NCBI GenBank assembly: GCA_937969445.1 | Contig: CALBVZ010000080.1 | Location: 1-32,741, forward strand | Length of the DNA stretch: 32,741 bases | Direction of reading: 5' to 3' | Source: an uncultured Octadecabacter sp. | Lineage (GTDB): Bacteria > Pseudomonadota > Alphaproteobacteria > Rhodobacterales > Rhodobacteraceae | Shown: positions 13,637 through 19,302 of the stretch, piece after piece | Layout of the letters: every line of letters starts with the position of its first letter | How positions within the stretch are numbered: the stretch's first letter is position 1 | The notes under the pieces: generated by a model | What the model was told of the DNA's origin: nothing | The model's database searches: none | What the model saw: only the letters and a program-made list of their open reading frames with translations | Made by a program: the position numbers and the translations under genes

Positions 13637-14536
13637 ATGAAGACTTGGGTGAAACGGATGGCTATTCTTTTCGCATCACTCGTTACGATTTCGGGCGGCA
13701 TGGTGGCCTGCAATTCATTGCCGCAACCGGTGCAAGCCCCCCAAAGCGAAACGTTGCGGGTTGCCACCTACAACGTTCACTACATTTGGATGGGCCGCGA
13801 AACGGGCAATTGGTCGTTGGGCGATTGGGAGAGGCGAAAGAGACCTTTGCAAACGGCGTTTCGCAGCCTTGAGGCCGATATCGTCGGCTTTCAGGAAATG
13901 GAAAGCTTTGGGCGCGGCATGGCGCCTGTGAACCTGACGCTGGATTGGCTGCGTGACCAAAACCCTGATTACGCAGCCGCGGCTGTTGGCGACCCAGCGG
14001 AGTTTCCCAGCACGCAGCCGATTTTCTACCGCCAAGACCGTTTGGAATTGCGCGACCAAGGGTGGTTCTTTTTCAGCGACACACCCGATGTCATCTATTC
14101 GCGGACCTTTAACGGATCATGGCCGGCGTTCGCAACTTGGGCTGAATTCGAAGACCAGAACGGCAAGGTGTTTCGCGTCTATAACCTGCACACCGAATAC
14201 CGCAGCATGTCGAACAAACAACGGTCCGTCGCATTGGTGGCAGGGCGTATCGCCGCGCCTGCAAACCGCATGCCTGTCTTTGTTATCGGCGATTTCAATG
14301 CGATCCGCGGATCCACGACCTTGGGGATACTCGAAGACGCGGGCGTCACATTCTGGCCTTCGCAAGGCTCGTCATTTCATTTCAATCGTGGCCTGAACCT
14401 TTTCCCCGCAATCGACCACATCGGTGGGATCAACGGGGTTGAACCCGTGGGTGAGACGTTTTCGGTAAGGGGGCGTTTTGATGGTGAATGGCCAACGGAC
14501 CACTATCCCGTTGTCGGGGATTTTACGCTTCGTTAG
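13637..14536 (+). CDS. Endonuclease/exonuclease/phosphatase (EEP) fold lipoprotein
   Basis: RVATYNVHYIW, GFQEME, FVIGDFNAI and TDHYPV motifs; lipobox MVAC; SD GGAG upstream of ATG 13637. Confidence 0.87.
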   Translation: MKTWVKRMAILFASLVTISGGMVACNSLPQPVQAPQSETLRVATYNVHYIWMGRETGNWSLGDWERRKRPLQTAFRSLEADIVGFQEMESFGRGMAPVNLTLDWLRDQNPDYAAAAVGDPAEFPSTQPIFYRQDRLELRDQGWFFFSDTPDVIYSRTFNGSWPAFATWAEFEDQNGKVFRVYNLHTEYRSMSNKQRSVALVAGRIAAPANRMPVFVIGDFNAIRGSTTLGILEDAGVTFWPSQGSSFHFNRGLNLFPAIDHIGGINGVEPVGETFSVRGRFDGEWPTDHYPVVGDFTLR

Positions 14537-15471
14537 GCCCAGATCAAATGGGTGACGTGATAGAAAATAGGGGCGGCAAAGATCACGCTATCTAGTTGGT
14601 CAGTGAACCCGCCTTGGCCCGGAATTAGGTGGGACCAGTCTTTGACGCCACGGTCTGCTTTGATAGCGGCGAACACTAGATTACCGAACATACCCGCTGC
14701 GGACGCCAGCGCTGCCATCGCCATCGCACCGCCGATCCCGAACGGGGTCATCCAGGCAAGCAATCCGCCAATGATAGCCGCAGATGCAACGCCGCAGGCC
14801 ATGCCTTCCCATGTCTTTGCGGACAGGCTCGGGATGATGCGGGTTTTGCCGATACGTCGGCCAAAGAAGAAATCCAACAGGTCGCCAAACTGAACGACCA
14901 TGATGAGGAAGGCGATGAGTAGCACGCCGCGATCTGCTGGATATCCTGCGACGTCGATCATCAGCAGGGCGGGGACATGGGACATGCAGAAGACGGCGAT
15001 CATCAACGCCCATTGGGTTTCGGCCACGCGGATAAGAAAGCGGTCAGGATTGCCGCGTAGGGCGGACACAACGGGCAACATCAGGAAGGCGTAGACGGGG
15101 ATGAAGACCGTATAGAGTACCTGCCAATCGAGACCGACGAACAGGTATTGCAACGGCAAAACCACGAAGAAACCCAGTGCGAGCGCGAGGTGGTCTGCCT
15201 GTCGTTTGTTGGTCAGTGTCAGGAATTCACGTAACGCGGCGAAGGACGCAAAAGCGAACAGCACGATGATGCCGACTTTGCCAGCGATTAATGCCAGCGT
15301 GAACAGGATGACCATGCCCCACCAGCTGCGCACGCGGGTCTTAAAGGTTTCCACGACGGGGTTGTCTTCGCCACCGCGCGCGCTGAGAACCTCGCCGAAT
15401 AGCGTCAGCAAGAACATGAGGCCACAGACGCCTAGAAACAGGCCAAGTATGTCAGAGCTGGTTGATGTCAT
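14533..15471 (-). CDS. cdsA: Phosphatidate cytidylyltransferase
   Basis: Polytopic membrane protein with CdsA signature region SLSAKTWEGMACG...DRGVKDWSHLIPGQGGFTDQLDS. Confidence 0.9.
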   Translation of the reverse strand: MTSTSSDILGLFLGVCGLMFLLTLFGEVLSARGGEDNPVVETFKTRVRSWWGMVILFTLALIAGKVGIIVLFAFASFAALREFLTLTNKRQADHLALALGFFVVLPLQYLFVGLDWQVLYTVFIPVYAFLMLPVVSALRGNPDRFLIRVAETQWALMIAVFCMSHVPALLMIDVAGYPADRGVLLIAFLIMVVQFGDLLDFFFGRRIGKTRIIPSLSAKTWEGMACGVASAAIIGGLLAWMTPFGIGGAMAMAALASAAGMFGNLVFAAIKADRGVKDWSHLIPGQGGFTDQLDSVIFAAPIFYHVTHLIWA

Positions 15472-16136
15472 AACCGATCTTCCTGACTTGGTGCGAGGTC
15501 AACAAGCGCGGCTGATGCGCGTTCCAAAAAGGCATCTTTTTTTTCATCGTCTTGAACGTGGATTGGCTCCCCGAAGGTCACGGTGCAAATCAGTGGCAAC
15601 GGAATGACTTCGCCCTTTGGCATGATCTCGGTCACATTGGCGATCCATGTCGGCACGAGGTCTACATCTGGGCGGGCTTTGCCCATGTTGAACAGGCCAG
15701 ACTTGAACGGCAGTAGCGGATCTTCCGTCATGTTGCGGTTGCCTTCGGGAAAGATGATCAGCGACGAACCGTCGTCCAAAGCATCCAGTATATTTTGCAT
15801 AGGGTCATGGTTTTCGCTCCGCGCTTCGGGGCGACGGTCGACCAGAACGCAGTTGAAAACCTCGGGGCCAACGAACGCGCGCAATTTGTTTTTCAGCCAG
15901 TAGTCTGCGGCAGCGACTGGGCGCACGTCGCGGCGGATGTTGGGTGGCATGCATGACCAGATCATCGGCATATCAGCGTTGCTAACGTGGTTGGCGTAAT
16001 AGACGCGTTGCTTGTTGACCGGCTCAATCCCACGCCAATCCGCACGTACGGCCGTGATAAAGTGGGCAAACAACGCGATTGCTTGGCCGACGATCTTGGC
16101 TGCAAATCTGCGGGGAAGGGACATGAGTGATTTCAT
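15468..16136 (-). CDS. plsC: 1-acyl-sn-glycerol-3-phosphate acyltransferase
   Basis: NHVSNADMPMIW (HX4D-type) and FPEGNR motifs; MKSLMSLPRRF start at 16136 preferred; ATGA overlap with cdsA. Confidence 0.87.
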   Translation of the reverse strand: MKSLMSLPRRFAAKIVGQAIALFAHFITAVRADWRGIEPVNKQRVYYANHVSNADMPMIWSCMPPNIRRDVRPVAAADYWLKNKLRAFVGPEVFNCVLVDRRPEARSENHDPMQNILDALDDGSSLIIFPEGNRNMTEDPLLPFKSGLFNMGKARPDVDLVPTWIANVTEIMPKGEVIPLPLICTVTFGEPIHVQDDEKKDAFLERASAALVDLAPSQEDRL

Positions 16137-16176
16137 TTTGGTGAGTTTGGCTGAGGATCGCAGGTTTGAAAAGGGG

Positions 16177-16217
16177 TGCGCCCCGCCACCCTTGGGACAG
16201 GGAAGGAGCGGGGCGCA
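16177..16217 (-). terminator. GC-rich hairpin followed by short T run (weak terminator or processing element)
   Basis: TGCGCCCCGC (16177-16186) pairs with GCGGGGCGCA (16208-16217); the minus strand continues CCCCTTTTC. Confidence 0.55.
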
Positions 16218-16243
16218 TGCCGCGAGCGGCAAGGGGGAAGGTC

Positions 16244-16537
16244 TTAGGCAGCTTTGTCGTCTTCGCCGCCGATGTAATCCGCCAACAGGCGTTCGTTACG
16301 GGCCTCTTCAACGCGCGAGATGCGGTCTTCAGACAGGCGTTCATCAAAGCGCAGTTTGACAAAGTTCACCAAGGATAAGGTCAGCATCATGATCCCGATA
16401 CCCCAGTACCCTTTGGTCGAAAGCGGCACGTCTGGGGACATGTAAAGCGAAAGACCAAGCATCCCATAGGCGGCGATAACGCCCGCTGCGTTAAACATAA
16501 TGATCAGGCCGTTGTCGGATTTGTTAAAGTTACTCAT
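16244..16537 (-). CDS. YiaA/YiaB-like two-helix inner membrane protein
   Basis: Two TM segments (GLIIMFNAAGVIAAYGMLGLSLYM; GYWGIGIMMLTLSLVNFVKL); directly downstream of pspA. Confidence 0.75.
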   Translation of the reverse strand: MSNFNKSDNGLIIMFNAAGVIAAYGMLGLSLYMSPDVPLSTKGYWGIGIMMLTLSLVNFVKLRFDERLSEDRISRVEEARNERLLADYIGGEDDKAA

Positions 16538-16567: not shown

Positions 16568-17251
16568 TTAGGCAGATTTTTTGGTTTTCAGACGGGCGAG
16601 GACATCGTCCGCTGTGGTGCGCGTGGCGGGGCCAAAGCCCTGATCTGCCATACGATCGGCAAGGGTTTCATGGCCCAAATCACGGTCGATCTCGCGCAGG
16701 ATCTCGGACTGCTCAAACGGGTCATCTTTGCCCATCACGCGGCCGATAAGTTCCTCTGCTTCTTCAACGTTCGAGGTGTGCCCGATGGTCGAGTTCAGCT
16801 TGGACTGGATCGCCTGTTCACGACGAACCGCTCGGGCTTGGATGGCGCCTTGCTTTAGATCGATAATGCGGCGGTGTCCGGCCTCGATTGAATTGCGCAG
16901 GCGGATGACTTTCTGGTCCAGCCGATCACAAGTTTCCGCGCGGATGGTCAGTTCGTTTTCCATTTGCGCGACCGCTTGTGCGGCTTCAGTCGCCAGTTCA
17001 TCGCGGCCCTGATCCATTGCGTCTTGGGCACGGGTCATCATGTCTTTGATGCGGTTTTTCAGGGCATCGCGCTGGCGTTCCTCTGAGCGTTGACGCTGGA
17101 TCAGCGAGGCGAGGGTGGCTTTCGCCGCCTTAAGGGATGTCTCGGCCTCGCGGATCTTCTGGTCGATCAATTCAATCGCAAAAGCATCGCGAACGCGGTC
17201 TTCGGAGCGTGCGTTGACCCCAGCAATGAGGGTTGAGAGTGTCTTGAACAT
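16568..17251 (-). CDS. pspA: PspA/IM30 family protein
   Basis: MFKTLSTLIAGVNARSEDR start, long coiled-coil, no signal peptide; ORF track extends upstream to 17296. Confidence 0.88.
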   Translation of the reverse strand: MFKTLSTLIAGVNARSEDRVRDAFAIELIDQKIREAETSLKAAKATLASLIQRQRSEERQRDALKNRIKDMMTRAQDAMDQGRDELATEAAQAVAQMENELTIRAETCDRLDQKVIRLRNSIEAGHRRIIDLKQGAIQARAVRREQAIQSKLNSTIGHTSNVEEAEELIGRVMGKDDPFEQSEILREIDRDLGHETLADRMADQGFGPATRTTADDVLARLKTKKSA

Positions 17252-17289
17252 ATCGCTTCCTTTCATCTGTCGCGGTTCACTTTGCATCG

Positions 17290-17302
17290 TGAACATTGTT
17301 CA
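17290..17302. promoter_or_regulatory. Putative TetR operator TGAACATTGTTCA in the pspA leader
   Basis: Palindrome with 6-bp arms around one central base, matching two other sites near tetR. Confidence 0.7.
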
Positions 17303-17309
17303 TAAATTA

Positions 17310-17338
17310 GATTTAGCGATGCTGCTGGCTTCGATCAA
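17310..17338 (-). promoter_or_regulatory. Candidate sigma70-type promoter of pspA: TTGATC-N17-TAAATC
   Basis: Minus-strand hexamers at 17338-17333 and 17315-17310, bracketed by the two palindromic sites. Confidence 0.45.
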
Positions 17339-17347
17339 GTAAAAACG

Positions 17348-17360
17348 TGAACGATGTTCA
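17348..17360. promoter_or_regulatory. Putative TetR operator TGAACGATGTTCA overlapping the tetR stop codon
   Basis: TGAAC-N3-GTTCA palindrome. Confidence 0.65.
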
Positions 17361-17963
17361 ATAAATTTGAGGAGAAGAAGCTAAGTGTTTGAGAATCAAT
17401 GAAATCATTTCGTCCAATTGCGCAGTCGGAACGCCCGCTGAGGCCTCATCCAGCCCCAAAAGTACGATTCCATGCACGCTTGAGAACAAAGCTTTGGTCA
17501 AAAGTGCGCGATTCTCTGTGCTGTGGTCGGGAAAAATGACGGATAGGGGTGCATCGATATAGGCAAACAGCTGTCCCATTTCCTGCAAATACCAATCGGG
17601 CGCGGTTTCACCGCTTGGGCGTTCCAGATCAAACAATGCGCGCCACGTGTTAAAGTTGGCAGCGGCAAAGTGGTGATAAGCGTGGGACATAACGATAAGC
17701 TGTTGCGTCGCGTCTTGTGGTGCTTCGGCCAAAGATTCCGCCACGGCAGCACCTAACCGTTTGAAAGTGCGGGCGTTCACGGCCAGCACGAGGTCATTCA
17801 AATCGCCAAACACATTATAGATCGCGCCAAGCGCGCAGCCCGCGTCTTTGGCCAAATCACGTGCACGAAGGTTTTTTAAACCGTCGGATGTAATCCGGCG
17901 CTCAGCGTTTTCAATTAGGGTGTCGCGCAAAGCTGCGCGGCGCAATTCAACTTTTCCGGCCAT
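17358..17963 (-). CDS. TetR/AcrR family transcriptional regulator
   Basis: HTH region GLKNLRARDLAKDAGCALGAIYNVFGDLNDLVLAV; AAGGA spacing favours ATG at 17963 (ORF track: 17969). Confidence 0.9.
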   Translation of the reverse strand: MAGKVELRRAALRDTLIENAERRITSDGLKNLRARDLAKDAGCALGAIYNVFGDLNDLVLAVNARTFKRLGAAVAESLAEAPQDATQQLIVMSHAYHHFAAANFNTWRALFDLERPSGETAPDWYLQEMGQLFAYIDAPLSVIFPDHSTENRALLTKALFSSVHGIVLLGLDEASAGVPTAQLDEMISLILKHLASSPQIY

Positions 17964-17973
17964 AGTCATTCCT

Positions 17974-17988
17974 TTGAACTTGGTTCAA
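17974..17988. promoter_or_regulatory. Putative autoregulatory TetR operator TTGAACTTGGTTCAA
   Basis: 6-bp arms TTGAAC/GTTCAA around TTG, just upstream of tetR start. Confidence 0.7.
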
Positions 17989-18072: not shown

Positions 18073-19302
18073 TTAATCCTTAACGGGTGCGCCGCCGGCA
18101 AACAGGTTGCGGCCATGATAGCCAATCGGGTCTTCCTGCATTTGTAGGTGAAGGCCGCTATCCGTGAACGGGTGTGCACGCGCGAGGTCTTCGTCGACAT
18201 CAATACCAAGCCCCGGCGCGGTTGGTACATTAATGTAACCGTTTTCAACGGTAATCGAAGACCTGATCAGCGCGTCGTGGAACGGCGTTTCAATGGTTTC
18301 GCACATCAGGATGTTTGGTAGCGTAGCGGCAAGTTGCACGTTTGCGGCCCACTCGACCGGTCCTGCATAAAGATGCGGTGCAACCTGCGCGTTGTAGACT
18401 TCGGCAAGTGCTGCGATCTTTTTGGTTTCCCAAATACCGCCTGAGCGCCCCAATGCTGGCTGCAAGATATTTGCCGCGCCACTTTGCAAGACGGCCGCAA
18501 ATTCTGCCTTGGTGGTTAGGCGTTCCCCGGTTGCAATGGGGATGTTAACGGCCGCAGCGACCTTGGCCATTTCTGCCACGGCGTCAGGTGGAATGGGTTC
18601 TTCGTACCAAAGCGGGCTAAATTTTTCGATGGCTTGGCCCATGCGAATGGCGCCGCCAGTAGAAAACTGGCCATGGGTACCAAACAGCAAATCCGCGTTC
18701 GGGCCGACGGCGTCGCGAATTTTCTGGCAGAACGCGACAGAGGTTTCGATGTCGTGCATCGAGGGCATATGCCCTGCACGGATGGTATAGGGGCCGGCGG
18801 GGTCGAATTTTACTGCGGTATAGCCTTGTTCGACCAAGCTGACGGCGACCTCGGCAGCCATATCGGCGCTGGCCCAAAACTCTGGCAGCGGATGCTGGGA
18901 TTGCGGATAAAGGTAAGTGTAGGCGCGGATTTTGTCGTTCAGACGTCCGCCGATCAGCGCGTGGACGGGGCGATCGCGGTCTTTGCCTAAAATGTCCCAA
19001 CATGCGATTTCAAGACCAGACCATGCGCCCATAACCGTCAGATCAGGGCGCTGTGTAAAGCCGCTAGAGTACGCACGACGGAACATCAGTTCGATATTTT
19101 CGGGATTTTCGTCCTGCATGTGACGCTCGAAAACGTCTTTGATCACGGCCTTCATTGCGTCAGGCCCAACCGTGGACGCGTAACATTCGCCCCAGCCAAC
19201 CACGCCTGTATCCGTCGTGACCTTTACCAAGATCCAATATCGCCCACCCCAGCCGGGGGCCGGAGGGGCGGTGATGATGATGTCGAGGTCTTGGAGTTTC
19301 AT
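18073..19302 (-). CDS. Mandelate racemase/muconate lactonizing enzyme family (enolase superfamily) protein, sugar-acid dehydratase-like
   Basis: GVVGWGECYAS, WYEEPIPP, TGERLTTKAEF and VAPHLYAGPV motifs. Confidence 0.88.
   Translation of the reverse strand: MKLQDLDIIITAPPAPGWGGRYWILVKVTTDTGVVGWGECYASTVGPDAMKAVIKDVFERHMQDENPENIELMFRRAYSSGFTQRPDLTVMGAWSGLEIACWDILGKDRDRPVHALIGGRLNDKIRAYTYLYPQSQHPLPEFWASADMAAEVAVSLVEQGYTAVKFDPAGPYTIRAGHMPSMHDIETSVAFCQKIRDAVGPNADLLFGTHGQFSTGGAIRMGQAIEKFSPLWYEEPIPPDAVAEMAKVAAAVNIPIATGERLTTKAEFAAVLQSGAANILQPALGRSGGIWETKKIAALAEVYNAQVAPHLYAGPVEWAANVQLAATLPNILMCETIETPFHDALIRSSITVENGYINVPTAPGLGIDVDEDLARAHPFTDSGLHLQMQEDPIGYHGRNLFAGGAPVKD

Follow-up and report, generated by a model that had tools for sequence, protein, structure and literature searches.

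Genes and regulatory sites of the tetR-pspA locus

The window, i.e. the whole 32.7-kb stretch of DNA that was analysed, carries on its minus strand a tetR and a pspA gene arranged in tandem, not divergently (Table 1). Along this strand the tetR operator is followed by tetR, operator O1, the -35 hexamer, 17 bases, the -10 hexamer, operator O3, pspA, the YiaAB-like gene, plsC and cdsA, the last two overlapping by 4 bases. The first three bases of O1 on the minus strand (TGA) form the tetR stop codon. The starts of tetR (17963) and pspA (17251) were set by comparison with orthologues and longer open reading frames were not adopted. Indeed, ORF finders put the pspA start at 17296 because an ATG sits at the edge of O3, and automatic annotation may bury this operator within the pspA gene.

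Table 1. Features of the tetR-pspA locus in window coordinates.
Feature	Position	Strand	Basis
tetR, TetR-family regulator, 201 aa, proposed repressor	17361-17963 (stop codon 17358-17360)	-	Pfam, AlphaFold2, Foldseek, orthologue start
tetR operator, proposed autoregulation site, TGAACTTGGTTCA	17975-17987	none	exact match; counterpart in 79/80 orthologous loci
Operator O1, upstream of pspA promoter, TGAACGATGTTCA	17348-17360	none	exact match, conserved
pspA promoter, -35 hexamer TTGATC	17333-17338	-	column conservation in 25 gap-free loci
pspA promoter, -10 hexamer TAAATC	17310-17315	-	TA columns invariant in 25 gap-free loci
Operator O3, about the transcription start, TGAACATTGTTCA	17290-17302	none	exact match, conserved 55-59 bp from O1
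pspA, PspA/IM30-family (ESCRT-III-like) membrane protein, 227 aa	16568-17251	-	PF04012
YiaAB-like two-helix membrane protein, 97 aa, second gene of pspA unit	16244-16537	-	PF05360 in relatives
PlsC-type acyltransferase, likely in pspA transcription unit	15468-16232	-	PF01553, 59.9 bits
Phosphatidate cytidylyltransferase (CdsA-like), likely in pspA unit	14533-15471	-	PF01148, 170 bits

The window is Octadecabacter-like, and its TetR shares 95% identity with the O. ascidiaceicola protein. This TetR exceeds the Pfam cut-off for TetR_C_33 (27.3 bits) and matches TetR_N with an E-value of 8.6e-4 and 19.5 bits, against a cut-off of 24. Its AlphaFold2 model (pLDDT 91.9) finds 3cjd as top Foldseek match (E 3.6e-14, 52% identity, TM 0.86-0.95). 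With a TetR-type N-terminal helix-turn-helix and an all-helical ligand domain, as given by the Pfam matches and the 3cjd fold, and with a palindromic operator beside its own gene in 79/80 loci, the protein belongs to the TetR family. The pspA product is a member of PspA/IM30 (PF04012, 68.9 bits for a cut-off of 33.9, residues 3-226) and does not reach the PspA equivalog TIGR02977, for which it scores 20 bits when 242.95 are needed. The YiaAB-like protein remains below the cut-off of PF05360 (18.4 versus 26.6 bits), a family matched by all 38 of its 38 relatives with a best E-value of 6.8e-6. Its model consists of two long helices, with which a structural search returned nothing significant.

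Conservation of the operator palindrome and of the pspA promoter

The initial annotation had described three TGAAC-N3-GTTCA palindromes, and all three are present, the third being the 17975-17987 core of a 17974-17988 site that included one flanking T..A pair. There are no other exact matches in the window; shuffling it 100 times with dinucleotides preserved yielded 0.01 matches on average and in no case three. For phylogenetic footprinting, 80 named loci (genome contigs) were gathered by TetR protein similarity alone, from Octadecabacter, Yoonia, Loktanella, Litoreibacter, Leisingera, Roseovarius and other genera. The exact motif lies upstream of tetR in 79 of the 80 loci and within the tetR-pspA gap in all 72 loci where pspA is adjacent, whereas the best rival among 3,072 comparable palindromes is found in 3 loci only; motif conservation, the check named beforehand, was thus passed. 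Furthermore, almost all orthologues, even those without pspA, have a site about 10-40 bp from the start of tetR, in agreement with the autoregulation that had been suggested. Nearly all genomes searched contain 3-9 exact sites per 3-5 Mb, and in several of them these are confined to the tetR-pspA locus. No conserved target accompanies several single exact sites in four genomes (G087, G020, G002 and G063; L050-L056), and these were attributed to chance. The additional half-sites GTTCAC-N8-GTGAAC do exist at 17275-17294 but are conserved only in the nearest Octadecabacter loci (L101, L103-L107), and they were left outside the conserved architecture because other genera do not have them.

The promoter predicted for pspA, TTGATC-N17-TAAATC, was confirmed on the minus strand, precisely between the first two sites (17338-17333 / 17315-17310). 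Pairwise identity across 25 gap-free loci is 100/92/92% in the TTG columns of the -35 box but 25-33% in the promoter spacer, and the TA columns of the -10 box are invariant. A generic promoter scan misses this promoter, which was recognised through comparison of relatives. The placement proposed for the operators, one at about +1 and one upstream of the -35, holds as well, the promoter being conserved in relatives; the position of O3 relative to +1 depends on an inferred transcription start and is thus approximate. The outer operators of the gap are spaced 55-59 bp, often as 23+35, and Litoreibacter, Leisingera and several further genera have a third site between them (21-23 + 34-36 bp). This operator, O2, where present, overlies the -35 box as CTTGAACNNNGTTCA. 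The window has no such middle site even with up to 3 mismatches allowed. Judging from the three-site relatives, O2 in the window's clade is a site decayed to TTGATC, TTGACC or TTGCAA-type forms in which the promoter hexamer was kept.

The neighbourhood of tetR is also conserved. Among the 80 loci, pspA is found near tetR in 74 and the YiaAB-like gene in 72; where enough sequence is available, plsC is adjacent in 58/67 loci and cdsA in 57/63. A gene of the mandelate racemase/muconate lactonizing type (18073-19302) lies upstream of tetR on the same strand and recurs in 49/80 loci; no operator of its own was seen, and it is possibly a merely conserved neighbour. One contig titled as a Mucilaginibacter MAG (L112, JAESTD010000278.1) bears a typical Rhodobacteraceae tetR-pspA-yiaAB locus and is probably mis-binned.

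Co-occurrence was assessed over 149 genera of the family, represented by 150 genomes, tetR being counted at about 40% identity or more. It is present in 28 genomes, pspA in 27 and both in 25, so that pspA accompanies tetR in 25/28 genomes and occurs in 2/122 others (Fisher p 6e-23). In one of these two exceptions (G090), a diverged tetR (30%) lies near a diverged pspA that has the same 23+35 bp site array, and in the other (G096) both genes are decayed remnants. The sites also follow the genes when these move: in G133 tetR and pspA are unlinked and each keeps its sites, in L132 the sites accompany a displaced pspA, and in G100, G054 and G022 the two genes diverge around a common site array. 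Three genomes (G026, G080 and G135) keep tetR and its autoregulatory site without a detectable pspA; hence pspA is not the sole purpose of tetR.

The classical parts of pspA control were also searched for. PspC (PF04024) was found in 0/29 genomes, with positive control genomes, PspF (TIGR02974) did not exceed the cut-off in any of 21, and no sigma54-like site occurs at 17083-17571 with up to 3 mismatches allowed; the PspC and PspF results bear out the suggestion of a wiring different from PspF/sigma54. As in the enterobacterial Psp system (PspF/sigma54, PspABC), a PspA/IM30 protein would be under a dedicated adjacent regulator and has a small membrane partner in its operon. However, the regulator there is the enhancer-binding protein PspF, whereas here it would be a TetR protein acting on a sigma70-type promoter with operators. 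The other wirings described, i.e. Lia (LiaRS two-component), ClgR-PspA-PspM-PspN and HAAS-PadR (PMC11237479), likewise join a pspA homologue to a lineage-specific transcription factor but differ in regulator family. Together, operator control of pspA appears to be conserved over dozens of genera that have no classical pspA control parts, an inference for which no binding data are at hand.

The TetR subfamily and its wider targets

The top structural match, 3CJD, is a TetR-family protein of Jannaschia sp. CCS1 (YP_510936.1) deposited as a structural-genomics entry in 2008, and it is an orthologue of the window TetR by sequence (phmmer 7.5e-58) and by fold. A relative 80% identical to 3CJD lies in a four-site tetR-pspA-yiaAB locus (G381). 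In the open-access literature searched, no mention, function or operator of 3CJD was found. In a class-wide search of Alphaproteobacteria, we examined the 27 best TetR relatives from other families. TGAAC-N3-GTTCA occurs near tetR in 18 of these 27, when the runner-up among 3,072 palindromes occurs in 2, and in G632 and G625 tetR is again paired with pspA-yiaAB. One small protein encoded behind such an operator (L230) matches PF05360 with 61 bits. In some diverged relatives, such as L226 and L238-L241, the exact site near tetR is missing. Based on these comparisons, the regulator is assigned to an Alphaproteobacteria-wide TetR subfamily, 3CJD included, with one common operator.

The regulon had been proposed to comprise tetR and pspA. 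Both carry sites, but the set of targets is larger than these two. In the window's own genome the operator also precedes a PlsC-type acyltransferase (likewise in G146), a membrane protein of about 400 aa (likewise in G049, G026, G080 and G022) and a small lipoprotein (likewise in G055). In other genomes the genes behind it encode RoxA-like cytochromes, DUF2585 and DUF2339, a CDP-alcohol phosphatidyltransferase, small secreted proteins accompanied by DUF2145, and a YiaAB protein together with an acyl-ACP--phospholipid acyltransferase/LplT-like transporter; ceramidase-like membrane proteins lie nearby.

The polytopic membrane protein of about 400 aa, of no known family (L006:1570-2778, L041, L058, L060, L082) has 1-3 operators upstream in 5 of the 8 genomes having the gene, two of which contain tetR without pspA; a 'DUF2157-like' label was dropped as there is no such Pfam or NCBIfam match. 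A secreted family of about 100 aa, rich in Ser/Gln/His/Ala (GPSxQHSxQA...; L038:3224-3517, L092:6304-6630, L095:5536-5862, L096:6281-6622), is repeatedly found behind one or two operators, with a DUF2145 gene downstream of it in L038, and gave no Pfam match over the cut-off.

Since the targets share an envelope and membrane-lipid theme, they are read as a membrane-lipid/envelope repair regulon, and a signal of lipid type is inferred for the same reason. We therefore advance, tentatively and as a possibility we would not yet call probable, that this TetR subfamily senses a membrane-lipid signal across Alphaproteobacteria and, via the one operator TGAAC-N3-GTTCA, runs a lineage-variable membrane repair kit. 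The kit would contain PspA-YiaAB, PlsC/CdsA, Aas/LplT-like lysophospholipid acyltransferase-transporters, CDP-alcohol phosphatidyltransferases, ceramidase-like and small secreted proteins, and the signal could be a lysophospholipid, a fatty acid or similar.

Proposed mechanism and meaning of the circuit

For the locus itself we consider it highly likely that TetR binds the palindromes, represses the pspA unit as well as its own gene, and is released by a membrane-damage signal, even though no binding, expression or mutant data support this. A TetR dimer would bind the 13-bp palindrome; at O3, about +1, and at O1, upstream of the -35, it would bar RNA polymerase from the sigma70-type promoter of pspA-yiaAB(-plsC-cdsA), and in relatives it may also sit at O2 over the -35. 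Bound at the start of its own gene, TetR would limit its own synthesis. Membrane damage would yield a signal that frees TetR from DNA and allows PspA, its YiaAB-like partner and the phospholipid enzymes to be made; the likeliest signal is a ligand, small and hydrophobic or lipid-derived, in the C-terminal pocket. Dimer binding, repression and ligand release are inferred from knowledge of the TetR family, and the idea of a lipid ligand is a guess based on the targets.

Repression could also be relieved by contact of TetR with PspA or the YiaAB-like protein instead of a small ligand. In E. coli PspA acts on PspF in this way, and tetR, pspA and yiaAB are tightly linked. Nevertheless, we regard such a switch as unlikely, given that TetR and its autoregulatory site remain in the three genomes without detectable pspA and that TetR has the C-terminal domain usual for ligand-binding TetR proteins.

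The identity of the binding protein is another concern, as a palindrome by itself does not identify its binder and tetR might be just one target of some other regulator. The TetR-family proteins BioQ and RolR have biotin and resorcinol as their target pathways. In Corynebacterium glutamicum, thus in another phylum, they use almost identical palindromes, TGAAC-N3-GTTAC and TGAAC-N4-GTTCA respectively (PMC9210681). No genes of the biotin or resorcinol type were seen at the TGAAC-N3-GTTCA sites here. A different binder seems very unlikely to us, since the motif tracks tetR in 79/80 loci of the family and 18/27 relatives elsewhere, even when pspA is missing or unlinked.

TetR proteins are not repressors only, and some, like FasR, activate. 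TetR might hence activate pspA from O1, whose position upstream of the -35 would suit an activator, and repress only itself. This is most improbable considering that a protein at O3 (about +1), or at O2 over the -35 in the relatives that have it, would be in a blocking position, and that the tetR site stands just ahead of the tetR start codon.

Finally, one 3.7 Mb genome (G113) contains 64 exact matches (reversed control 1), an unexplained abundance in which the sampled sites (L069-L072) are scattered without a common flank and none is near its diverged tetR; it is the one reason to think of chance or a functionless repeat element, an explanation that can scarcely be entertained with 0.01 sites expected in the window and that the footprinting refutes, position, spacing and sequence of the sites being kept while the promoter spacer is only 25-33% identical. 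The initial reading of the locus is borne out wherever the sequence allows a test, with binding, repression and ligand remaining inferred and with a circuit wider than first described.

The open-access literature searched yielded no account of pspA being controlled by a TetR protein, and two large PSP surveys (PMC11237479, PMC9239133) do not use the word TetR in their main texts; an earlier in-silico prediction is not excluded. For most bacteria without PspF, PspB and PspC, the control of PspA is an open question. The present locus offers a likely function for 3CJD, which has stood in the PDB without one since 2008, and its regulon names candidate partners of PspA, namely the YiaAB-like protein and the phospholipid enzymes. 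Searches with the operator may also reveal envelope-stress genes throughout the Alphaproteobacteria. If the wider lipid-sensing reading is true, the TetR circuit would parallel the Psp response as a lipid-sensing system of the cytoplasm in which pspA is one module. For a large marine (Roseobacter-type) group of bacteria, the proposed circuit of one repressor, one operator and one promoter would be simple, complete and testable.
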